DNA from: Simmondsia chinensis
Lineage: Eukaryota; Streptophyta; Magnoliopsida; Caryophyllales; Simmondsiaceae
DNA: 64,000 nt
Assembly (NCBI GenBank): GCA_018398585.1
Contig: JAGTTD010000011.1
Coordinates: 31,988,164 to 32,052,163 of the forward strand
Direction: 5' to 3'
How positions within the stretch are numbered: the first letter of the stretch is position 1; the number at the start of each line of letters is the position of its first letter. A program made the translations under genes and the position numbers. The notes beneath the pieces are model-generated. The model did not search any database. It saw only the letters and a list, made by a program, of their open reading frames with translations, and was not told the DNA's origin. This document shows, one piece after another, positions 2,465 through 64,000 of this stretch.

Positions 2465-2640
2465 TAAGTTGTTGAGTTTGATATAATGGTTAAACTAGTC
2501 ATCCTTAATAGAAGGTCTTGAATTCGAAATTCATCTCCATCTTTCTCAAATATAGAAAACATTTATTAGGACACTCCAGACCCTGCTTATGCGAGAGCCC
2601 TTAGAGGCATTGGGTTTGTTGTTATTGATTTATTAGGAGA
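2465..2640 (+). mobile_element. tRNA-headed SINE with Au-type tail
   Basis: The 5' part has a tRNA-like A-box region ('ataatggttaaac') and a B-box-like 'cttgaattcgaaatt'. The 3' part has the Au tail ('ccagaccctgcttatgcgag', 'gcattgggtttgttgttattg'). This is the usual plant SINE layout. It is useful as a contrast to the 5S-headed copies at 21.7, 23.8, 26.9, 34.8 and 48.7 kb, which carry the same kind of tail. Confidence 0.6.
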
Positions 2641-4635
2641 CTGTAGTACCTCTTTACTGTCTAAAAAAATTATAAAAAAAGGAAATATATAGATCAAGTT
2701 AAAAGAAACAGCTTTCAAAATTTGAATTCCCAGTTGAATTTGGATTTAACTGATGTAATGTAAACGATCCCTGTTTAAAAACGAAGTGCCAAAATACACA
2801 AAATGTATCCAATTTGGATTTATTGTAATATATGAAGATAATTATCTAAAATATCCTTCTATAGTCTAATAATTTTATATCAGACATATCATATAGTGTC
2901 TCGGTAATACCAAACTTACTAGGGATATATTGGTCATATCGACATTTCGTAGTACAAAATTGTCTATCTTAATGATATGGAAGATTTGTCTATACAACAT
3001 GAGTTAATTTACAAAAAGATTGGGAATGAAGAAAAAAATGCAGCAAAATTTGATATTAACACGACAAAAGTGTTTGTCTTAATTCTCTTTGGACAAAATT
3101 TTGTGGAGGATTGGGCAAGATTCTTAGCGATGTGGAATGAATATGCAAAACTCGATATTAACACGTCAAAATTGAAGAAGTTCGGAGACCACCGAAATGA
3201 GAAAGACAATGTCAGAATTTATATTTGAGAATTTCGAGATGACGAACAAAAACAGCCAAGCTATGAATTTATAGGCAATATAAAAACCATATTCCTCAAA
3301 AATTACGAAAATGCCCATAAACTAGTCTCAAAAGACAAAAGTGACCCAAAATGCATTTTAGGGGACCAAATTTGGCCAAAACAAGTGGGGTCAATAATAA
3401 AGCAACTAGATTTGCATAATTTAACCTGATGTTTTTTTACAAATATTTAGGTCACATAACTCCTTATGCATCAAAACTTATAACTGTTTTAAATCACAAT
3501 TGTGAATCAATACTTCCAGTCCACCCTTTTGGACTTCTGACGATTTACTTGTTCCATAAGCAGCTCATCGTCCTGCATCACTTATCCTCAACATATTGTA
3601 CATTCTTTCTTTTTCAGTACGATTTTCTTCCCACAATTCAAAAAAAAAAAAAAAAAAAAAATAACTGGCACCCACATTGAGAAGAAGTGGAAGTATGAGG
3701 CCTAAAAAAGTTTCACAATTTAACTTTGGCAAATGACCAATAGAACTGTATTTTTCTGTTGTTTTTTACAACTGTGCTTAGCTCCTCTCAAGTCACCAGA
3801 GCATTTAGTGAGGGCAAATGCATTTGGTTAAGCCAAATCTTTTGTTAAAGTACTTCACAACAATCATAATGATTAATCTAATGTATTATTAGCTAGAGTA
3901 TAAAATCATTTATGGAAATTCACCGATTAGTTTACAAGTTTGAATAACAATGGGCCCTACTTCTAATATTAGCATAATTTAAACACAAGGTATGAGATAA
4001 GTTTATGTACTGATTGGCACTATTATAATGTCCAATGTTGTTGGTAATATTATTCCGAATAAGACAACAGGAAGGATAAGCAAGAAGGCTAATACCGAGT
4101 ATTGTGCAAAAATCGAGTACTTTTATACTAGTGGGATTTCAACCTGGGTGAAGAAGGAAAGAGACAGTCATGAGTAACATCCATCCTTGTGCCTCTACAC
4201 CCTTTAGTATTGGATCATCAATTTCAAAAGAGCTTCGAGTACCACACAATTGAGCCTAGTGATAGAAAACTATGTAGCTTTCTTTTTGCTAGGGTGTCTG
4301 TGTTAAAACAAACTACTCACCCTTATGCCTCTCACCTTACCTTTTTCAAGCAACAAATACCAAGATGGATTAGAATACTCGAGTAATCATGTATTGAATG
4401 CCAAAGATGTGATTTTAGCCCTATTAGCACCCCTACCTCACCATAAAAGACTATCCGAAAGCCACCAAAGGAATCCAAACTTTTCTAGTCCACCTAGAAA
4501 ACTGCTCTGAAAACAAAAATCTAGTAAGTTTTTAGAATGAGAACTTAGAAAGGAAAGCTCCTCTATTAGAAAGGAAAATTTAGAGAACAAGAATAATGTT
4601 ATTTAGGAAAACAAAACATAAGAACCTGAAAATTT
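2641..4635. other. Intergenic, no gene recognised
   Basis: AT-rich sequence with short ORFs (2977-3228, 3429-3680, 4189-4510) that have no recognisable domain, biased composition or splice context. A poly-A run lies at 3640-3661. Nothing here supports a gene. Confidence 0.5.
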
Positions 4636-8799: not shown

Positions 8800-10640
8800 G
8801 CAATTATGTGAACGGGATTTATATAGAGCATCTCTAACAGTGTAGGCAACTTTCCATAAATGCAACCCTCGTAGGAACTTCAACAAGATATTTAAATGTC
8901 GAATAAGATGCATATTTAGGTACGTAGTATTCATTCTCCAACCTATGAAATAAGTTGCAGAGGTGAGAGAGGGATACAACTATTTTTTGTTTTGTGCTGA
9001 TGTGCTATCAATAAAAAATATATAATTTATTAAGTTCTGCAAATTTTCAATATAATGTTTTTTGTATTTTATTTTCTATATGTAATTCATTTTCTTTAGT
9101 GATTATTTCATGTCTATTTCGTTTGTTTTTTTGGATGTCATAATTATTTTACAAATACTTGCCTATATCCAATTTTTATAGTTTAGTGTTTCAATTAAAA
9201 AATAATATATCAAATTTTTGTAGCTTTTTGTTTAAATTAAAAAATAATAATATGTATAATTTTTTTTTTTTATTTATAACATTTAGTAATACTTCTGATT
9301 TATTGTCAAAAGGAGTATTCCACACGTGTGAGGCGAAAGCTTTTTGAATGTTCGACTTTGAATTTCGCACTGAAGATAACTCTTAGGCTCTACTTGCTAT
9401 TTGAAATTGCAATTTGATTATTGAATTGTGAATTATTAAACTGAAATTATTAAGAAAATAAAAATTATACTGTTTAGTTACTTAAAAAAATCAAAGGTTA
9501 TTATTGTAAGTTCATCACAATTCGATTCTTCACATTTTGGGATCAATTGGATTGCAACGTCACAAGTTTTGGATCAGCTAGGATCCAATTTTTGCTGGGG
9601 AGCATTGCGTTGAGTTTAAGTTATCTTAAATTTTAGGTCAACTCGAATCAAGTTCAGTTATGTCGGACCATGTCGCATTTGAGTCACTTTGAATTTTAAG
9701 GTTTGGTTAGGTCGTTGAGGGATTTAGGTTATATCATATCCAATTTGAGTTAATTCAACTCATCTTGATCTTGAATCATTTTGGTTTTAGGCCAATTGGG
9801 TTGCATCGTTTTTCAAAACTTAATTTATTTCAATTTCAGGCCAATTTTAGGCCATAAGTAAGTTGAGTCAGAGCATTATCGTTTCGGGATTAGCTTAGCT
9901 GCGGCACATTAAAGTTAGATATGTTCATTTTGGATTGCATATAAATGGTTTTAGGTCAAATAGGTTGGATCGCTTCGAGTGTAGAGTCATATCAAGTGGG
10001 CTTAAGTCGAGCTTGTTGTCACGAATTGAAGTTAATCGAGTTGCATCATTTCAAGTTATGGGTACTTGAGATGGAACCCACGGTTTTCGTACGGGATCAA
10101 GCAATTGCAACAATTTCCGATGGGTGAATCCTCTTATATTAGAATATCTCCTAGTTCCAAGCCTACATCTTCTAACAAAGGAGCGTTACCTGATTAAGGA
10201 TATCATGCAACGAAGGAAAAATGAGGGAGCAATTATCCCGCCACCAACCAAAAATTCTAAACCCCTTCGAGGTGGGTTAGAAACCCATATATGATGCATG
10301 CTAGGACGCCGTTGCAACAACGCAAAAGGACAATCATATGCTCAATAATCTCTCAACTCTCCCCGACACCGAGAATACCCCGAATATCGGGCCAAACTCC
10401 TCTTTCGTGGATTATCATTAATCACGAGCGCTTAATATAGGCTCTCCAAACAAGTGTCTCATTCGCAAGAAGGATGGACAACTGAGTTAAGAGGCCATCA
10501 ATTAGAACACATTTTCAATATCCAGACTTAGTAGTGTAACTCTCGTGTCTAGTGTAGTGCCATTTAATGGAATTGGGCGTACCAAAATTCCTAATAGCTA
10601 TTCATCCAATAAATGACTCCTCTTAACTACAAGTCGGACT
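8800..10640. other. Repeat-derived intergenic DNA
   Basis: 8.8-9.4 kb is AT-rich with no recognised gene. 9.5-10.1 kb is made of degenerate repeated words around 'ttaggtcaattcgggt' and 'gagttgcatc', resembling decayed low-complexity transposon sequence. Short ORFs (9945-10127) fall in that repeat and are not supported. Confidence 0.45.
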
Positions 10641-52620: not shown

Positions 52621-53659
52621 TGTATATATATTATGGCTAGTGTTAGGGTAAGAATATTTTTTATTAATGTTAGGACAAGAATAACGACTTTTTAAAATTT
52701 ATCATGTTGACATTATCTTGACATTAAAAAAAAATGCCCCGTCGTAACATATATTATTACATAATGAGTCTAACATGATTGATGGTTTTAGTTAATAATG
52801 GCAAATGGTCGCAGACACAGGAGTGAAGTTCAAAGGAGCAGTTAGAGCAAGATTTCATGCTCCATAATTTGCTGAGATCCTAATAAATTAATAATTCTCC
52901 GGCGTTGACAAAGAGGGCCATGAATTGTTATATAATATTACAAGAAAATTATCTATGTGCCATAATATTTTAGAATTTATTACATAGGTACTATGATAAT
53001 TTAGTAATATACAATTATGTAACCTGAATTTAATGGCAAAAACCATTATATATTTTTCATGTACTAAAAATTCGAGAAGGAGACGAGATGCATTGATTGT
53101 CCTAAAATATGACTTAATCGAGGGTAATACAGGACTAGATTCTCGTTTAATATTTCTCATGGTTGATTATTTTGTTGTTTAGTTTTCTCTTTTTGAATGC
53201 TTTTTTACTTGAACCTACTTTCAACTTGGAAACTTTTATCCTATTTGTCCTAAACAAAGAAATCCAAGTACTAGGTTGTTGCTCTTGATTTCTGAGGGCT
53301 TTGTTAAATATTATGGCCAAAAAACAAGCAAAGCAAAAGCAAGCGTAAAAGCAAAATATATAAAAAATGAACTGATACAAAAATAAGTAGAAGTAAGATC
53401 CTTAAGTTGAGCTAATAATTAAAATTTCGCATTCTTTTAACTACATCCTTAATTTAAAGTTCACTAATTACCCTTTTTCTATAATAGTATCATATAATTA
53501 TATAATCTCTTCATTAAAATAAAATAGTAATTTATGAAAAGAAAAGTGAGTGCTCACTTTTCAACACCTACCAAGAAACTAACCTAAAACTAAGAAACCC
53601 AAAACACACTATTACATTGCTTAACACCTTCACTCCTACACCACCAAAACCCCTACGGC

Positions 53660-53660
<1 letters not shown>
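52621..53660. other. AT-rich spacer and ATL promoter region
   Basis: No exon recognised. The last 100 bp ('ccaaaacccctacggcaac') is the likely promoter/leader of the ATL gene. Confidence 0.4.

Positions 53661-53701
<41 letters not shown>
53661..53701 (+). repeat. (TC)n microsatellite in the ATL leader
   Basis: About 20 TC units ending 10 bp before the start codon. CT-rich leaders are common in plants; the length here makes it a likely polymorphic site. Confidence 0.9.
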
Positions 53702-53706
<5 letters not shown>

Positions 53707-53710
53707 CGCC

Positions 53711-54283
53711 ATGAACCCATATGAACTAAACAGCAAAATCATGCTCATTGCAATTCTCTCCTTATCCCTTGTCATCCTACTTGTCATTCTCCTTCACATT
53801 TATGCAAGGTGCGCCCTTAGCCACCCACCCCACCACCGCAACCCACCACCGGCCGACCACCCCAAGCCTGGGCTCGAACCATATCTCATCTCTTCCTTGC
53901 CAGTGATCAAGGCCAAGGACCATCATGGTCTGGGTCAGGGTGCCATTGAGTGCTCTATTTGTTTGAGTGTGTTAGAGGTCACTGAAATGGCCAAGATTTT
54001 GCCTAATTGTAAGCACTTATTTCATGTAGATTGCATTGGCACATGGCTCAGAAGCCAACCCACGTGCCCAATTTGTCGGACCGAGGCGGTGCCAGTGGTG
54101 GGTCCGCCATCAGCGCCGCCCTTGGAAGAGTGTAGTGGCAAGAGTGGTAATAATGAGGGGTCAAGTTTTAGGTTAAGTTCTTTTAGAAGGATTATGGGTA
54201 GAGATGGATCATCATCATCATCATCAAAAAGGATGAATCTTTGTGGTGGTGGGCTTGAATTGGATGATCTTGAGAGACAGTAA
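53711..54283 (+). CDS. ATL-family RING-H2 finger E3 ubiquitin ligase
   Basis: Intronless 190-aa protein; ATG at 53711 (a GTG nine bases upstream in frame is not a start). Residues about 10-31 form one hydrophobic membrane segment. A GLD-like motif GLEPYLISSLPV (54-65) precedes the RING-H2 finger: C81-x2-C84-x15-C100-x-H102-x2-H105-x2-C108-x10-C119-x2-C122, with the W at 112 and P before the last Cys that contact E2 enzymes. This order (membrane helix, GLD, RING-H2) defines the plant ATL ligases, which ubiquitinate targets at membranes, often in defence or stress. The C-terminal tail is Ser/Gly rich with a polyserine run. Which ATL member it is cannot be decided here. No defects seen. Confidence 0.93.
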   Translation: MNPYELNSKIMLIAILSLSLVILLVILLHIYARCALSHPPHHRNPPPADHPKPGLEPYLISSLPVIKAKDHHGLGQGAIECSICLSVLEVTEMAKILPNCKHLFHVDCIGTWLRSQPTCPICRTEAVPVVGPPSAPPLEECSGKSGNNEGSSFRLSSFRRIMGRDGSSSSSSKRMNLCGGGLELDDLERQ

Positions 54284-54463
54284 CTCTGAGATTAATTTGG
54301 GAAAAATTCATTTGCATATTCTAAGGTCAGTTGGAATATTTTTTATGGGATATGGCAAGTTTTTGTAATTTAATTGAGGTATTTCTTATTATTTGATATT
54401 ATTATTTTTTATAAGTACTCTTACTATTGTATTGTTAAGTTCTATTTGACTGAGTTTCTTTTT

Positions 54464-54780
54464 GGGAAATCGTACGGTTTGGACCCCCCACCCCCCCTAT
54501 TCTTTTTTAGACCCCCTTAACCGTAAATAGACCTTTTTGGACAAAAATGCCCTCCCACCTCACCCCCCCCCCCCATCCGTCCTCTCTCTCTCCCCCTTTC
54601 TCTCTCCTCATTTAATACAAGGCAGGCAAAAGGGCACTTTTTTGAATTTTTTCACTCTTCCTTTTCTTCATTTTTTTTTCTTTTCGAATTTTTTTGTTAA
54701 AAAAAAAATATTATTTCCAAATTTGCCCTTTCTTCTTCTTCTCTCCCAGACCTTGTTTAGGTGTGTTTCAAGTAATTAGT
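54464..54780. mobile_element. Left terminal segment of the MULE
   Basis: Begins GGGAAATCGTACGGTTTGG (54464) followed by C-rich sequence, 'atgccctcccacctca' and 'ctctctcctcatttaat'. The reverse complement of about 62000-62400 shows the same order ('gcgccctcccattcaa', 'ctctctcctcatttaat'), so these are inverted terminal segments. The terminus itself is inferred from this match; no target-site duplication was found because the right end is not resolved. Confidence 0.5.
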
Positions 54781-56690
54781 GGTGTCTGAAATAAAATCAT
54801 ACACTGTGTATGATGCATTATAATGCTATAAAGTGAACTTATTCAGGTGTATTTCAAGTAATTAATGGTAAATGACTTATCATACACAATGTATGATAGG
54901 TTTTAATGACATAAAATCAACTTTTGCAGGTTTTTTTAAGTAATTAGTCTGATTTCTAATCATACACTGTGTATGATGCGTTAAAATGGTGTAAAATGAA
55001 CTTGTTGAGGTACGTTCCAAGTAATTAGTGGTAAATGACTTATCATACATAATGTATGATAGGTTTTAATGACATAAAATCAACTTCTGCTGTTTTTTTC
55101 AAGTAATTAGGGATACAGTGGTCTGAAATCGAATCATACACTGGGTATGATGCGTTATAATGGTGTAAAATGAACTTATTCAGGTTTATTTCAATTAATT
55201 AGTAGTAAATAACTTATCATACACAATGTATGATAGGTTTTAATGGCATAAAATTAACTTTTGCAGTTTTTTTTTATGTAATTACTGTTACAGTGGTCTG
55301 AAATTGAATCATACAGTGGGTATGATGCATTTTAATGGTGTAAAATGAACTTGTTCAGGTGTATTTCAAGCAATTAGTGGTAAATGACTTGTCATACACA
55401 ATGTATAATAGGTTATAATGGCATAAAATTAACTTTTGCAGTTGTTTTATGTAATTACTGTTATAGTGGTCTGAAATCGAATCATACACTGGGTATGATG
55501 CGTTAAAATGGTTTAAAGGTATGTTTCAAGTAATTAGTGGTAAATGACTTATCATACACAAATTATTATAGGTTTTAATGACATAAAATCAACTTTTGCA
55601 GGTTTTTTCGAGTAATTACTGTTACAATGGTCTGAAATTGAATCATACACTGTGTATAATGCGTTATAATGGTGTAAAATAAACTTATTCGGGTATGTTT
55701 CAAGTCATTAGTGGTAAATGACTTATCATACACAATGTATGATAGGTTTTAATGGCATAAAATCAACTTTTGCAGATTTTTTCATGTATTTAGTGGTACA
55801 GTGGTATGAAAGCTAATCCTACACTATGTATGATCCCTTAAAATGGTGTATAATGAACTTGTTCAGGTATATTTTAAGTAATTAGTGGAAAATAACTTGT
55901 CATACATAATGTATGATAGGTTGTAATGGTATAAAATCAACTTTTGCCGATTTTTTCAAGTAATTACTGTTACAGTGGTCTGAAATCGAATCGTACACTG
56001 GGTATGATGCGTTATAATGGTGTAAAATGACCTTATTCGGGTATACTTCAAGTAATTAGTGGTAAATAACTTGTCATACACAATGTATGATAGGTTTTAA
56101 TGGCATAAAATCAACTTTTGCAGGTTTTTTCATGTATTTAGTGGTACAGTGGCATGAAAGCTAATCCTACGCTGTGTATTATGTGTTAAAATGGTGTCAA
56201 AGGAACTTATTCAGGTATATTTCAAGTAATTAGTGGTAAATAACTTGTCATACACAATGTATGATAGGTTTTAATGGCATAAAATCAACTTTTGCAGGTT
56301 TTTTCAAGTATTTAGTGGTGCAGTGGTATGAAAGCTAATCATACACTGTGTATGATGCGTTATAATGGTGTAAAATAAACTTATTCAGGTGTATTTCTAT
56401 TAATTAGTGGTAAATGACGTATCATACACAATGTATGATAGGTTTTAATGGCATAAAATCAACTTTTGCTGGGTTTTTACTTTATTTAGTAGTACAGTGG
56501 TCTGAAATCGAATCATACAATGTTTATGATGGGTTAAAATGGTTTAAAATGAACTTTTTTAGGTATGTTTCAAGTAATTAGTGGAAAATGACTTATCATA
56601 CACAATGTATGATAGGTTTTATTTGCATAAAATTAACTTTTGTCGGTTTTTTCAAGTATTTAGTGGTACAGTGGTCTGAAATTAGCTTAG
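54781..56690. repeat. MULE left outer array, alternating 80-90 bp units
   Basis: Two unit types alternate, giving a dimer of about 163-174 bp. One carries ATCATACACAATGTATGAT within 'ggtaaatgactt...aggttttaatggcataaaa'. The other carries ATCATACACTGTGTATGAT within 'ctgaaatcga...gcgttataatggtgtaaaa'. Measured starts of TCATACA: 54797, 54880, 54960, 55043, 55134, 55217. About two dozen units. Confidence 0.9.
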
Positions 56691-57355
56691 TGGTGTATGA
56701 TATGTATTAATGGTGTGAAATCAACTTGTACAAGTGTGTTTCAACTACTTAGTGGTGTATGACTTACCATACATAGTATATGATAAGTGTCAATGGTGTG
56801 AAATCAACTTCTACAAGTGTGTTTCAACTATTTAGCGGTGTATGACTTACCATACATAGTGTATGATAAGTATTAATGGTGTGAAATCAACTTCTACAAG
56901 TGTGTTTCAACTACTTAGTGTTGTATGACTTACCATACATCGTGTATGATATGTATTAATGGTGTGAAATCAACTTGTACAAGTGTGTTTCAACTACTTA
57001 GTGGTGTATGACTTACCATACATAGTGTATGATAAGTATTAATGGTGTGAAATCAACTTGTACAAGTGTGTTTCAATTACTTAGTGTTGTATGACTTACC
57101 ATAAATCGTGTATGATAAGTATTAATGGTGTGAAATCAACCTGTACAAGTGTGTTTCAACTACTTAGTGTTGTATGACTTACCATACATCGTGTATGATA
57201 AGTATTAATGGTGTGAATTCAACTTGTACAAGTGTGTTTCAACTACTTAGTGGTGCATGACTTACCATACATAGTGTATGATAAGTATTAATGGTGTGAA
57301 ATCAACTTCTACAAGTGTGTTTCATTTACTTGTATGACTTACTATACACTTGTAT
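56691..57355. repeat. MULE left inner array, 82-84 bp units
   Basis: About eight more uniform units with 'ttaccatacatagtgtatga', 'ttaatggtgtgaaatcaact' and 'acaagtgtgtttcaactact'. They differ little from each other, suggesting recent homogenisation. Confidence 0.9.
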
Positions 57356-57823
57356 AAGTGTATGACTTACCGAAGGCTTTGATCTGTCATCATTCAATTT
57401 AAACATTCAGGTAATTATTGGTATCGACACACAGACCTGCTGACACCTTTGATGCTGATATGTGTGGCAACACACCATCCATGCGTGTCGACATACATCG
57501 TAACACACTTGAAAAACAAATCAACCACTTAGAACACACAATTGGGACCAACTTCAAAACAATTCATTGACAATTTTCATTACAGGAATATACAACAATA
57601 TGAAAATATACACAATTTTTTATTACACTATTTCATACACATCACAACCTTTCGACAATTTTCAGTACATTGAATGCAATGTAAATCCTATGGTAATATA
57701 CAATAACATATACACATCACAGAAAAATTTAAATCCTATGGGAATGTACAATGTAAATCCTATGGTAAAACGAAATTATATAGCTATGTTACAAGTAAAA
57801 TTTATACATTTGAAGACTGTAAG
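57356..57823 (-). other. 3' side of the MULE transposase
   Basis: Presumed 3' UTR of the minus-strand transposase. Contains a short doubled word ('aatcctatgg' at 57687, 57733, 57757). No separate gene. Confidence 0.4.
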
Positions 57824-60637
57824 TTAATTTGGAGGAGGGACTTGAGATGGACGGCCGAAGTTGGATGAGGTGCATTCGCCACTAGGACGCAGAGCAATTG
57901 GATTCTTGCACGTGGATCGGTTATGCCTGTGTTCCTTGCACCGAGTGCACCTTTGATGAACACACTTCTCACCGACAGACGGAATCCTCCTCTTCTGCCT
58001 CCTCCCAGAAGAGGTTCGCACGTCGGGTGGAAGAAGATTCATGTCAGCTACATCGCGCAGGATACGCCAGTCACTTATGTGCGGCATCGGGTAGACGATA
58101 CTTCTATACGACTCGTACTAATTTTTTCTACTGTAGTACGGCGAGCACAAGTCGTACAGAGCATAGGGACTGTGCTGTACACCGCTAATGCATGCTCACA
58201 TGGAAGCTGCTCAAGCTGAAACCTGCGGCAGGTACATGTCCAGAGCGACATATCTATTACAAAATTTTTCTCCCCATCGATGACGTCGAACGTATGATCA
58301 TCAGCTCGCAATATCTACATTACCACAAGAATAGACAAACGCGTCAAACAACCAAGGTGCAAGCAAAATACAAAAATATAAGAAAAATAAAATAAAAATA
58401 AAAAAAAAAAACAAAACATAAACAACGAAACACTCGAAGGGCATCAAAATTAGCGGATTTCACACTCGAAGGGCACCAACGCGCTATAAACATGCTTTGT
58501 AGTAGGGATTAAACATGACAATATGTGCGGAGCTTACCGTCATCGTTCTTGCTAACTTGAATCTGTCTTGTAATTTTTTTTTGACTTCGGGAGACATTGT
58601 ACTGGTGCAAGCTTCAGCCTTGGCTCTTCTTTCGTGAAACCACCTCTGCAACAGTAGCCTAAACTCATCAACAAAGGCTGTAATTGGATAGTCACGTACC
58701 TTGGGCAATACAGCGTTCATGGATTTCGAAATGTTTGTCGTCATTATGTTGTACCGACGACAAGGGAAGTGGGAACGAGTCCGCTTGTGCAGTCCCACAT
58801 CTTCCAAGTAATCTTTAGCCCCGGGTACGGCACAACATAAACTGAAAAACAAACTATGGAACTCTTGAATGTTGTATGCTTTGGCTGCTTTGTAGTAGTA
58901 CTGATTCAAATGCTTCCTATTGCTCTTGAATTTGGCCTTCAAGTTGTTCAGCAAGTGGTACATGCAGAGCCCGTGAAATGTGACAGGGAAAAGTTCTTCC
59001 ACCGCGCGTTGGATGCTTCGGTGTCTATCGGATAAAATGACATGTCCAGCAGGCTCCCCAGTTACTTCCCTCAACCTACTGAGGAACCAATGCCACGATG
59101 CATCATTCTCTGAATCACCGATGCCACTAGCAATCGGGAAAATTTGCTGGTTAGCATCGTGGCAAACGGCCATGAACAAAACACCCCGGTACTTTCCCTT
59201 TAGATGTGTTGCGTCAATGCTCACAACAGGCCGGTAAAACCGGCACCCATTAACTGAAGCACCAAAAGCAATGAAGAGGTACTGAAACCTACTTTCATCA
59301 TCTGTCTGTAAATAAAATGTGGTACTGGGGTCAGTCTGTTTGAGGACTTGCAGATAGCCAGGCAAGAATGCATACGACTCTTCGGCCGTACCCAATCTAA
59401 CATTGTCGTATGCAAACTCTCTCGCCCTCCAAGAAACACTGTAGCTGATATCGACACTGTAGCAACTGCGAATGTCATCTATGACATCCCGTGGCTTGAA
59501 CACTCTCCCGGGGTTCACAAGTTTCTTGCGGACGCACTCCCCGACGACCCAACTGGTTGCCTGCCTGTGTCTAACAGTGGTGAGATCGCTAGGGTGGTTG
59601 TGGTTCTTTTCTACTTTCGTGACCATCCAGCGGCCACCATCTGCTACACACATAGCCCGACCCCTCCATGTGCAGCCCTCTTGTGCGCAGCGGACAACCG
59701 TTAAGGATTTGTTCGACTTGTAGCTCCTGAATTCAAATTTTTCCCTAAGCGCAATCACTGCCAGGTTAGTCAACAAGTCCCTCTTCATCATAAATATTTG
59801 ATTGACTTCAATATCCTCAACCATCTGGCCCTGCGCATATACCCTGTCAATCCTGCTCCTCTCATCACCGGAGCCAGCATCATCATCAGAACGAGGATAA
59901 CTAGCAGCTTGGACGTCAGGGTGGACATTCGGTTGACCGCTGGGTTCCGCATTCCGTTCCAATTCAGGTTCGACAATCAAAGGGTCTTCGGGGGAAATAT
60001 TACAATGCTCGTAAGTGTGCCCCTCTGGAGGTGATGCATTAGGTACACTCGGTTGCACCTGGGATAAATTAATATTATCCAAATTATCCCATGCACTTTG
60101 ATTGGAATTTTCCCAATCTCCACCTGCTGTTGTTGCCTCAACCGTCATAGTAGGCATGTTCAAATCTACATCAGATGCATCTACACTGGCTGCTTCTTCC
60201 ATCCCCGCATCCATACATCCACCAGAAGTCCCGGGAACCTCAGGGTGCGAACGGCCACTGTTCTCGTCACCATCGGGAATTGTTTGAAAGGGAGTCCGTT
60301 GCCAATCGAAGCTAGGATTCCTGTCACCGGATGACTCTACAGTTACGATCAAAGGACGCTTCGCCCTATCTTCTTTGGCTAGTGCCTTCCAAAACATAAC
60401 GGACCTATCGTCAACGACATCGTACAAGGGCACGACCGGAATGGCGGTGAAAGATTGAAAATGCATCTTTGAACTCGCATCCAACTGAGCACCAATCACC
60501 TCCGCCACAGTCCTTTGCAAACCAGTGAAGTCAGTTTTCTCATCCACAAAAATATAAGCCAATTTTTCACCAACGTACTTTGCCCTCTCCTTAAAGTGGC
60601 CACCGTACAGAACGCATGCAATAGCAGCATCACCCAT
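57824..60637 (-). CDS. Mutator-like (MULE/MuDR) transposase, C-terminal part damaged or unusually spliced
   Basis: The main exon 60637-58538 encodes 700 residues from MGDAAIACVLYGG. The start follows an acceptor (TTTTCTTGTCCGCAG), so the open frame beyond it to 60661 is probably intron. Domains: PB1-like N-terminus (about 1-100); acidic low-complexity linker; MuDR-type DNA-binding zinc finger C317-x4-C322...H346-x-H348; MULE DDE core with D475 (SIDATHLKGKY), D537 (ILSDRHRS), the CMYHLLNNLK motif and E592 as candidate third acid. Donor ACG/GTAAGC at 58538 joins in phase to an exon starting 58314 (ILRADDHTF), giving a SWIM finger C727-x-C729-x9-C739-x-H741. Beyond HALAVYS the frame is lost near 58150-58180. 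The expected YALYDLCSPYY lies one frame over and meets TAG at 58118-58120. After that YESYRSIVYPMP continues to a zinc knuckle CTRCKEHRHNRSTC and a stop at 57824. It therefore looks recently disabled unless an unusual splice removes this part. Confidence 0.9.
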
Positions 60638-60719
60638 TACTGCGGACAAGAAAAAAAACATGATATCAAAACAAATTTGATATGAAACACACTAGGGTGG
60701 AATAAAAGTACAGCATTGA
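60638..60719 (-). other. Probable 5' intron end of the transposase gene
   Basis: On the minus strand a polypyrimidine run leads into CCGCAG just before the start codon, as expected of a 3' splice site. The upstream exon was not identified and may lie inside or beyond the repeat array. Confidence 0.4.
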
Positions 60720-61960
60720 AACCACTAATAAACGGTGTATGATTGGTTTAAAACCATAATACACAAATAACACCACTTTAAGAAAGAATACATGGTGTAT
60801 GATTTGCGTTACAGTCATAAACAAGTTCATCACACACCTTTTAAAGCAATCATACACGGTCTATGGTTAAGGATACCACATTCTATACACGAAAGACATC
60901 AAAACAGGTTCATCCTAGACCAATCAAAGCTATCATACACGGTGTATGGTAAACCATACACCATTCTGTACTTGAAAGACACTAAAATAAGTTCATCATA
61001 CACCCTTTGAAGCTCTCATACACAGTGTATGGTTTAATACGCCCCATTATATACACAGTTAAAACCAATCATACACAGTGTATGATGGATTATACACCAT
61101 TAATTACTTAACATACACAAACAGAACTTGGCTATACACCATAAAACCAATCCTGCACAGTGTATGACTGATTATACACCATTAATTACTTAACATACAC
61201 ATACACAGGTTGGTTATACACCATTAAACCCAACCATACACAGTGTATGGTTGCTCATAAACCACTAATTACTTAAAAAACGTTTGCACAAATAGGTTAT
61301 ACACCATTAAACTCAATCCTACACAGTGTATGACTGATTATACACCATTAATTACTTAACATACACATACACATGTTGTTTATACACCATTAAACCCAAT
61401 CATATACAGTGTATGGTTGCTCATAAACCACTAATTACTTAAAAAATGTCTGCACAAGTTGGTTATACACCATTAAACTCAATCCTACACAGTGCATGAT
61501 TGATTATACACCATTAATTACTTAACATACACATACACAAGTTGGTTATACACCATTAAAACCAATCATACACAGTGTATGATTGATTATACATCACTAA
61601 TTACTTAACACACACAAACACAAGTTGGTTATACACCATTAAAACCAATCCTACACAGTGTATGACTGATTATACACCATTAATTACTTAACATACACAA
61701 ACACAAGTTGATTTCACACCATTCAAACCTATCATACACGGTGTATGATAGATCATATAGCACTATTTACATGAAGCACACCTAAACAAGTTGATTTCAC
61801 ACCATTAAAACCTATCATACACGATGTATGACTAATCATACACCACTAATGAGTTCAAACACACCAAAAGAAAGTTATAATACATCATTTAAACCAATCA
61901 TAAACCATAAACGACTTGTAACACACCGACCTCATAGAACAAGGATACATTAACGACAAT
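60720..61960. repeat. MULE right inner array, about 83-bp units, inverted
   Basis: Units contain 'caatcatacacagtgtatga', 'ttatacaccattaattactt' and 'acacaagttggttatacacc', the reverse complement of the left array units. Palindromes at about 61152, 61233, 61318, 61401, 61484, 61566, 61650, 61734 and 61816 give an even 81-85 bp spacing. The first few units (60720-61070) are irregular. Confidence 0.9.
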
Positions 61961-61999
61961 GTCAGCAAATGGTCATGTTACCTTCAATATCTGATCTGA

Positions 62000-62450
62000 A
62001 AACCGTGAAATGTGTGTAACGACTCAACGTTGAACCTACAGCAATGCCACGAAGCTTCAAACACGATCTTAAAACGGCTTCTTCTTCTTCTTCTTCTTTC
62101 GAGGGCCCAATGTAGCAGATTAAGAGAAAAATGGACTTGGAAAATTCAAATTAAGAGAAAAATAACAAATACTATGAATAAGAGGTGAGTAAATGGCGTG
62201 AAATGAGAAGAAGGGAGGGATAGAGTGAGAAGCAAATTACATGACATAAAGTAAAAATATGTATTTTTGCATTAAATGAAGAGAGAGAAAATGGAGTGGG
62301 GACGGGCTAAAGTACAGTAATCGGCTGCGCATTAAATGAGGAGAGAGAAAGCGAACGGGTTGGGGGGTTGAATGGGAGGGCGCTTTTTAAGGGAAATCAT
62401 ACGGATTATTTTATTAAAAATGTATATTTTTTTTCTAAATACACATCCCA
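62000..62450. mobile_element. TIR-like segment between the two right arrays
   Basis: Purine-rich sequence with 'attaaatgaggagagagaaa' (doubled near 62273 and 62331), 'ggggggttgaatgggagggc' and 'tacggatta', inverted relative to 54464-54700. On the left this segment lies outside the arrays, while here arrays lie on both sides of it. Confidence 0.5.
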
Positions 62451-62479
62451 AAAATACACAAATATACGTTGATTTTACA

Positions 62480-64000
62480 CAAATATAATCCATCATACAC
62501 CGTGTATGAAGTGCATCATACACCAATAAAACTTGAAATACACGTATATCAGCTGATTTCAGACCACTGTAACACTACATACTTGAAAAAACCTGCAAAA
62601 GTTGATTTTATGCAAATAAAACCTATCATACATTGTGTATGATAAGTCATTTACCACTAATTACTCGAAACATACCTAAAAAAGTTTATTTTAAACCATT
62701 TTAACCCATCATACACATTGTATGATTCGATTTCAGACCACTGTACTACTAAATACAGTAAAGACCCAGCAAAAGTTGATTTTATGCCATTAAAACCTAT
62801 CATACATTGTGTATGATACGTCATTTACCACTAATTAATAGAAATACACCTGAATAAGTTTATTTTACATCATTTTAACACATAATACACAGCGTAGGAT
62901 TAGCTTTCATACCACTGTACCACTAAATACATGAAAAAACCTGCAAAAGTTGATTTTATGCCATCAAAACCTATCATACATTGTGTATGACAAGTTATTT
63001 ACCACTAATTACTTTAAGTATACCTGAATAAGCTTATTTGACACCATTATAACGTATCATACCTAGTGTATGATTAGTTTTCATACCACTGCACTACTAA
63101 ATACTTGAAAAAACCTGCAAAAGTTAATTTTATGCCATTAAAACCTATCATACATTGTGTATGACAAGTTATTTACCACTAATTACTTGAAATATATCAG
63201 AATAAGTTCATTTTACACCATTTTAACACATAATACACAGCGTAGGATTAGCTTTCATACCACTGTACCACTAAATACATGAAAAAACCTGCAAAAGTTA
63301 ATTTTATGCCATTATAACCTATCATACATTGTGTATGACAAGTTATTTACCACTAATTAATTGAAATAAACCTGAATAAGTTTATTTTACACCATTATAA
63401 CGCATCATACCCAGTGTATGATTCGATTTCAGACCACTATAAGCCTAATTACTTGAAAAAAATAACAAAAGTTGATTTTATGCCATTAAAACCTATCATA
63501 CATTATGTATGATAAGTCATTTACCACTAATTACTTGGAACGTACCTCAACAAGTTCATTATACACCATTTTAACGCAGCATACACAGTGTATGATTCGA
63601 AATCAGACTAATTACTTAAAAAAATCTGTAAAAGTTGATTTTATGTCATTAAAACCTATCATACATTATGTATGATAAGTCATTTACCACTAACTACTTG
63701 AAAAATACCTGAAAACGTTCATTTTACACCATTTTAACACATCATACACAGTGTATGATTCGATTTCAGAACACTGTAACAGTAATTACTTGAAAAAATC
63801 AGCAAAAGTTGATTTTATGCCATTAAAACCTGTCATACATTGTGTATGATAAGTCATTTACCACTACTTAATTGAAACATACCTGAAAAAGTTCATTTTA
63901 TACAATTATAACGCATCATACACAGTGTATGATTTTATTTCAGACCAATGCACCACTAATTATTTAAAAAAATCAGCAAAAGTTAATTTTATACCAGTAA
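62480..64000. repeat. MULE right outer array, continuing past the window
   Basis: Alternating units, reverse complement of 54781-56690: 'aaacctatcatacattgtgt', 'gataagtcatttaccactaa', 'cagtgtatgattcgatttca', 'gcaaaagttgattttatgcc'. The array is cut by the window end. Confidence 0.9.

Follow-up and report, generated by a model that had tools for sequence, protein, structure and literature searches.

Palindrome arrays throughout the non-coding DNA of a Mutator-like transposon family of Simmondsia chinensis, candidate targets of a DUF1985 protein

Why should a transposon carry, on both sides of one transposase gene, dozens of copies of a short palindrome at almost constant distances? The question is raised by a 64,000-nucleotide stretch of the Simmondsia chinensis genome (the window; C11:31988164-32052163), in which an earlier note had described a Mutator-like element (MULE) with two mirror-image palindrome arrays as its arms, and had suggested either transposase or regulator binding sites multiplied by selection or a satellite seeded by a transposon. 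We followed the element through the 831-Mb assembly of 35 contigs; genome match lists hold the best-scored candidates, given below as the best N of M. Our answer is that the arrays are probably the multiplied target sites of a sequence-specific anti-silencing protein resembling VANC of Arabidopsis. The anatomy of the family is strongly supported, and its function (protein-DNA binding, dimerisation, anti-silencing and the selective cause) we infer by analogy.

The element spans 54464 to 66341 (11,878 bp). The left end given earlier stands; the right end, which had been placed at 64000, lies 2.3 kb beyond the window, at C11:32054504. An exact 9-bp target-site duplication (TSD), TTTCTTTTT, is found at both sides, its left copy at 54455..54463 and its right copy directly after 66341, outside the window. 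The two ends are 94% identical over 1 kb and are long terminal inverted repeats (TIRs). Pfam results showed that the minus-strand gene encodes a MULE transposase (MULE PF10551, 6e-22; DBD_Tnp_Mut PF03108, 3.5e-6), and the SWIM domain (PF04434) was scored on e12, a complete copy described below. With MULE/MuDR transposase domains, a target duplication of the 8-11 bp class and TIRs, the element is a bona fide MULE, as had been proposed. A search with the leftmost 1001 bp of the element (best 36 of 3796 candidates scored) matched many places in the genome, often as plus/minus pairs, and among 14 copies with both ends the duplication is an exact 9 bp in 10, 8/9 in two, 7/9 in one and 3/9 in one. 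The family is abundant, and the window copy is a broken member of it. We ruled out that this copy is the autonomous form, because its SWIM exon is broken (the alignment runs in two frames, with an in-frame stop) and it lacks a second gene. We also ruled out the insertion of one MULE into the array of another, since one exact TSD pair encloses everything and the order of inner plus outer arrays is common to other copies.

Palindromes were called with at most three mismatches to TCATACACNGTGTATGA, the centre being ignored. By this rule, the 14 kb surrounding the element hold 82, of which 60 fall in the window; each of 20 first-order Markov shuffles gave 0 or 1. Tandem Repeats Finder returned the same arrays with periods of 83 and 174. 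The dozens of palindromes spaced by about 80 bp were therefore real, and so was their opposite orientation: the arrays are mirrored about the transposase gene, because the outer ones belong to the TIRs. The dyad is TCATACAY-N-RTGTATGA, 17 bp long. The terminal 333 bp (54464..54796, plus strand, beginning GGGAAATCGTACGG and mirrored at 66341) are CT-rich and palindrome-free, and the first palindrome of each arm lies directly beyond them, 333 bp inward of the tip. The left outer array (54797..56612, plus) has 21 palindromes and the right one (62493..64000, minus) has 17 in the window and 22 more before the tip at 66341; in both, unit classes A and B alternate at 83 and 91 bp, making a 174-bp unit. 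The inner arrays are I_L (56690..57320, plus, seven palindromes in 83-bp units), on the 3' side of the transposase, and I_R (60700..61870, minus, 15 palindromes, mostly in 83-bp units), directly 5' of its ATG. Of the earlier division into alternating outer and uniform inner units, the 83/91 alternation and the 83-bp inner period held; uniformity did not, as the two inner arrays are different classes and I_R departs from the 83-bp period at its gene-near end, where the steps are 60, 64 and 53 bp. Palindrome spacing is closely alike in 31 arms picked by their tip. In the consensus of these arms the tenth palindrome from the tip (~1098 bp) is degenerate, and the second step from the tip is 78-81 bp in 29 arms and 91 bp in both e12 arms. 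The outermost 1.2 kb of the arms seems to be a fixed block in which single units carry marks of their own.

The sole complete member examined, e12 (C12:2519147-2536844), is 17,698 bp long, holds 92 palindromes and has TTATAATAG on both sides as an exact TSD. Its first half consists of tip, outer array, promoter-like segment, array, transposase, SWIM exon and array I_L. The second half, on the opposite strand, continues with C48, array, coiled coil, DUF1985, array, promoter-like segment, outer array and tip. The transposase is thus faced by a convergent second gene with the domain set DUF1985, coiled coil and C48 (Ulp1) peptidase, and I_L lies between the 3' ends of the two genes. Since the complete e12 carries this gene, the window copy is a derivative without the DUF1985 half. 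Matches to DUF1985 and C48 were also found in e35 and e9, array elements without a transposase. In e35, Pfam scored DUF1985 (PF09331, 2.1e-11) and Peptidase_C48 (PF02902, 3e-9); it did not report DUF287 on two e35 pieces, the only parts scanned. The two domains are on one strand in e12, e35, e9 and L035, and in all four of these family DUF1985 copies an array stands both 5' of DUF1985 and between the coiled coil and C48. Judged from the gaps between exon matches, DUF1985, coiled coil and C48 are predicted to form one gene with introns. In the best 42 residues of the coiled coil, 10 of the 12 a/d positions are hydrophobic, which 13 of 2000 residue shuffles reached, a somewhat flattering figure as the best window was picked first. 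By eye, another stretch that looks like a match follows the C48 part of e12 downstream, behind a splice-like acceptor, and the C48 domains of e35 and e12 each depart, at different residues, from what we take to be the Ulp1 catalytic pattern.

We investigated how often the two genes occur together. The matches listed with the DUF1985 exon of e35 (best 150 of 628) are 90-100% identical to it. Such a match lies 4.5-8.1 kb from 39 of 62 scored transposases (best 62 of 1821), and all 39 are convergent. A search with PF09331 (best 150 of 521) added three partners by eye, at C31:4713242, C34:1447568 and C11:24539475, with gaps of ~6.0-6.4 kb, which brings the transposases with a convergent DUF1985 gene to at least 42 of the 62. 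For the remaining 20, one of which is the window copy, no partner is among the matches listed. The ratio dN/dS is 0.33-0.52 in 10 pairs of five transposases and 0.42-0.60 in three pairs of three DUF1985 exons, which indicates mild purifying selection on both. Protein database searches returned 26 transposases from Ulmus and, from short contigs, two DUF1985 proteins.

In the copies read, arrays accompany the transposase and keep out of coding matches. They are present in all five copies with a full-length main transposase exon (the window copy, e10, e12, which is also L029, L030 and L031); L029, L030 and L031 were fetched for their transposase alone and have inner and outer arrays as in the window, as does e10. 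Transposase copies without arrays, named in the earlier note as a sign against its reading, were therefore not seen among these five. We counted 702 palindromes in 10 loci that have a coding match, after merging stretches that overlap and with flanks included. None falls within the coding matches, which make up 19.3 of the 123.2 kb and would hold ~110 if palindromes were evenly spread. As for a satellite seeded by the transposon, 29 of 40 inner-array regions (best 40 of 2907) are near a scored transposase, a DUF1985 match or an element tip, and the remaining 11 have no such neighbour among the matches listed; the idea is unsupported so far.

The palindrome had also been said to be conserved inside otherwise drifting units, and across unit classes and lineages this proved right. 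For the classes, units were located by spacer similarity, with class consensuses taken from palindrome-chosen units. The ratio of palindrome to spacer mismatches against the consensus is 0.61 in class A (471 units), 0.42 in B (486), 0.64 in I_L (90) and 0.44 in I_R (67), and the palindrome block ranks 7, 1, 22 and 5 of 75, respectively. For a deeper test, four DUF1985 loci, L036 to L039, were picked from the PF09331 list for their differing open frames. Their DUF1985 identity to e35 is 71%, 82%, 83% and 78%, respectively; among themselves and against e12/e35 it is 69-85%, e12 and e35 being 93% identical. Their coiled-coil matches are 42-64% identical, except for two short pieces (18-20 residues, 70-78%). 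All four loci have the same palindrome in 83-bp units (164 bp in L038), with arrays 5' of DUF1985 and 3' of the coiled coil, and C48 follows beyond the second array in L037 and L039, the loci where the 7-kb stretch reaches that far.

Nine arrays from four lineages were then compared as rings; total identity, with no regard to the palindrome, decided the alignment (60-81 of 83 at the best rotation, 33-40 at the second best). L038, whose units are 164 bp, and the short arrays on the 5' side in e35, e9 and e12 were omitted; array bounds were repeat-finder rows for L036, L037, L039 and the window I_R and were set by hand for the window I_L and e12. The consensuses differ by 0.059 in the palindrome versus 0.201 in the spacer, which makes the palindrome rank 1 of 83 blocks. 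Its rank is also 1 for the non-leader arrays taken separately, and the leader arrays differ per pair at 0 of 16 palindrome positions and at 2-11 of 66 spacer positions. One motif is found with five DUF1985 lineages, the family itself and L036 to L039, two of them close. Palindrome and period are conserved across lineages, and palindromes are absent from the coding matches.

The gene content and repeat placement match those of Arabidopsis VANC systems, which is why we read the arrays as targets of the DUF1985 protein. VANC21 occupies YAGTATTAY motifs in non-coding DNA, and these are tandemly repeated in the introns of VANC21 and VANB21 and upstream of VANA21 (PMC5735166). VANC proteins contain DUF1985, according to the Arabidopsis VANDAL literature, and some carry Ulp1, as in KIU (PMC13317346). 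VANDAL21 and VANDAL6 likewise combine a MULE transposase with a second gene containing DUF1985, and have C/T motif variants (PMC5735166, PMC10398659). The VANC type also shares with our family a short motif tandemly repeated in non-coding DNA, including the introns of the DUF1985 gene, which are here predicted from gaps. The suggestion of multiplied binding sites, and the pointer to VANDAL and VANC that came with it, thus gain from the convergent DUF1985-coiled coil-C48 gene of e12 and from arrays in large non-coding parts. Binding and demethylation, known from the Arabidopsis system, are predicted for the present family.

If the analogy holds, the DUF1985 protein would dimerise through its coiled coil and read the dyad, which would suit a dimer, together with helically phased GTGT half-sites. 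It would coat the non-coding DNA of family members and strip repressive chromatin from it; the transposase would then be made, and gene-less members would be mobile too. Each added unit would be an added anchoring site, so that longer arrays would be favoured, and unequal exchange would supply them.

The half-sites come from a regularity of the 83-bp ring. The tetranucleotide GTGT occurs at ring positions 21, 42 and 62 in all nine arrays and at 0 in seven of nine, with additional copies at position 2 in six arrays and at 77 in three. Each of the steps (21, 21, 20 and 21 bp) corresponds to two helical turns of 10.4 bp. With no motif named, mean self-similarity is highest at a shift of 21, followed by 41. 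Taken alone, the maximum at 21 bp is weak, 61 of 1000 permutations reaching it; the joint 21/41 pattern is reached by 9 of 1000 for any basic shift and by 0 of 1000 for pre-set shifts. Four random sites are as even as 0, 21, 42 and 62 (for any of harmonics 2-12) with a frequency of 0.0008, a figure that uses these four positions, omits GTGT at 2 or 77 and concerns a motif picked after looking. Both the joint and the spacing tests are post hoc, and the relatedness of the arrays reduces their material to one ancestral unit.

We tentatively consider, as a possibility that we would not rely on, that the unit is a helically phased loading platform, with a code shared across lineages and with TIRs built of the platform. 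The ancestral 83-bp unit would hold GTGT half-sites over about eight turns, one inverted half-site making the dyad, and a dimer of the DUF1985-coiled coil-Ulp1 protein would load along one face of the DNA over kilobases. MULE lineages would share the code, so that one anti-silencer could serve other lineages and gene-less array elements, and the TIRs themselves would be made of the platform, the opposite of VANDAL TIR loss. Sasaki et al., in EMBO J in 2022, reportedly found that the VANC domains DUF1985, DUF287 and Ulp1 were gained and lost in eudicots, and that motif sequence, density and helical periodicity are said to set specificity. The helical phasing may be another case of that rule, with a dyad and TIR-forming arrays added, and so not new.

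The centre of the palindrome was looked at for methylation contexts. In class A and I_R it is C-N-G, a CHG context; in class B and I_L the centres show C-to-T at that cytosine, as deamination of a methylated site would give. The inner-left array of e12 (e12 9600-10550, C12:2527199-2528149) has 0 CG and 0 CHG in 951 bp, the other e12 arrays have 39.9-49.4 CHG per kb, and the window I_L has 4.8. Avoidance of methylation is at most partial, because class A palindromes hold a central CNG. Given the 1-base centre, the palindromes are unlikely to form hairpins or cruciforms.

Several results weigh against arrays of DUF1985-protein targets. At homologous positions in the 31 arms of recent copies, drift is 0.0424 in the palindrome and 0.0466 in the spacer, and 305 of 959 circularly shifted masks are as low or lower; in recent copies, and only there, the palindrome diverges as the spacers do, which the earlier note had set down beforehand as speaking against function. 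Equal drift between recent copies is as expected if insertions decay neutrally. The palindrome block of class I_L ranks only 22 of 75, that of the leader arrays only 3 of 83, and other blocks of the unit are almost equally conserved. The compared lineages are related, L037 and L039 closely so (85% identical in DUF1985, with differences at 2 of 66 spacer positions in the leader arrays). Helical phase is lost in the outer arrays, where the step from B to A is 91 bp. For a DUF1985 relative, AlphaFold gave a model with a pLDDT of 36, which is unusable for judging a DNA-binding fold. VANDAL elements differ from the family as well: their TIRs are degenerate, which is read as escape from RNA-directed methylation (PMC10398659, PMC6446971), whereas those here are long and array-built. 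Arabidopsis VANC motifs change quickly between related families, whereas here one motif persists among lineages 69-85% identical in DUF1985. We discarded three lines as evidence of selection: palindrome-chosen units, which are biased; conservation in recent copies, where palindrome and spacer drift alike; and the consensuses of two subfamilies, which differ at 2 of 68 palindrome and 11 of 296 spacer positions and are uninformative.

Could the palindromes instead be binding sites of the transposase, read perhaps by its N-terminus, as the earlier note had in mind? Extra copies in the TIRs would then raise its loading, and internal copies would be by-products of TIR duplication. The outer arrays are indeed part of the TIRs, the internal CT-rich segment resembles the tip, and for tomato MULEs it has been argued that tandem TIRs make elements more competent to transpose (PMC3310237). 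Eight two-ended copies (L011 to L016, L018 and L019) have no transposase, DUF1985, coiled-coil or C48 match and are 59-89% array; their duplications, an exact 9 bp in seven and 7 of 9 in one, imply that they have moved. A MULE transposase, as seen for MURA, is expected to act at the terminal region. Here, however, the terminal 333 bp are palindrome-free, and arrays also stand inside the gap of the DUF1985-C48 gene and between the two genes. Because the terminal 333 bp lack the motif and the internal gaps are full of it, we prefer targets of the DUF1985 protein and consider transposase sites unlikely.

We consider it more doubtful still that the arrays are a non-functional minisatellite, grown inside a MULE by slippage and unequal exchange and carried along with it, with homogenisation and shared descent giving an appearance of conservation. 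The equal drift of palindrome and spacer among recent copies, the relatedness of the lineages and the variable palindrome number (22 to 110 across the 14 two-ended copies) would all fit. Homogenisation alone, however, gives no reason why the palindrome should be the best-conserved 17-bp block in nine arrays of four lineages. The arrays also avoid coding matches, and in all four divergent loci they recur on the 5' side of DUF1985 and on the 3' side of the coiled coil. Another reading, that the element took over binding sites of a host transcription factor or an insulator-type protein to drive or protect expression of both genes, would suit the dense arrays directly 5' of both, yet is very improbable given the arrays in 3' and intragenic non-coding DNA and the lack of any palindrome (at most three mismatches) in the remaining 54.5 kb of the window (1-54463).

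Targets of a DUF1985 protein, if that is what they are, have partial counterparts in other elements. Kaonashi/KIU, ULP1-carrying MULEs of Arabidopsis, melon, rice and grapevine, also combine a DUF1985/VANC-type gene with Ulp1/C48 in a MULE; the Arabidopsis ones are non-TIR, and palindrome arrays are not among the features described in the available text (PMC13317346). VANDAL elements differ in the motif itself, which here is a 17-bp dyad in 83-bp units; the word "palindrome" is absent from the main text of PMC5735166. Tm1 of root-knot nematodes (PMC3169594) and Tetris of Drosophila (PMC4079207), which are foldback elements, have composite long TIRs with variable tandem repeats, and Tm1 also has a Mutator-type transposase and 9-bp duplications. 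In these two, as far as their available texts go, the repeats lie in the TIRs, Tetris seeding satellites as well, and neither a convergent DUF1985 gene nor a cross-lineage dyad is described. Our family has the long inverted arms of tandem repeats that define foldback elements, yet its arrays are internal too. FARE of Arabidopsis is likewise foldback-type, with composite long TIRs and variable-number tandem repeats. MULEs with multiple long TIRs also keep duplicated terminal modules in mobile copies; there whole TIRs are tandemly duplicated, here tens of short units (PMC3310237). In the titles and abstract openings of open-licence literature, we found neither this family nor palindromic VANC-type arrays described.

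The rest of the window copy is on the minus strand. The main transposase exon (58484..60637) contains the two domains scored by Pfam, the disrupted SWIM zinc-finger/C-terminal exon is at 57824..58323, and the 3' non-coding region of the gene extends over 57350..57823. Beyond I_R, a CT-rich segment without array (61890..62450) partly resembles the element tip and is also present in other transposase-bearing copies; its sequence suggests a promoter. Splice-like sequence seen by eye at I_R suggests an intron in the 5' leader. On the other side of the element, an open frame at 53594-54283 (plus strand) has a RING-finger look by eye and stops ~170 bp before the insertion, so the element may lie just 3' of a host gene. 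In the array-only copy L016, a 468-aa open frame of foreign look (2537-3940, C4:34075636-34077039) is probably a nested insertion.

Should the arrays turn out not to be targets of the DUF1985 protein, the family would still show with unusual clarity how ordered, site-like repeats can make up most of the non-coding DNA of a transposon. If they are, it would have an anti-silencing system of the VANC type outside Arabidopsis, the source of the tested systems in the papers cited. Its target code would be simple, dense and periodic, with a DNA rule (sequence, dyad, helical phase and number) that could be tested directly. The array-built TIRs would be a counter-example to VANC-gene MULEs shedding their TIRs to escape RNA-directed methylation. 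One motif across lineages that differ by 15-31% in DUF1985 would also allow asking whether anti-silencing is shared among them.

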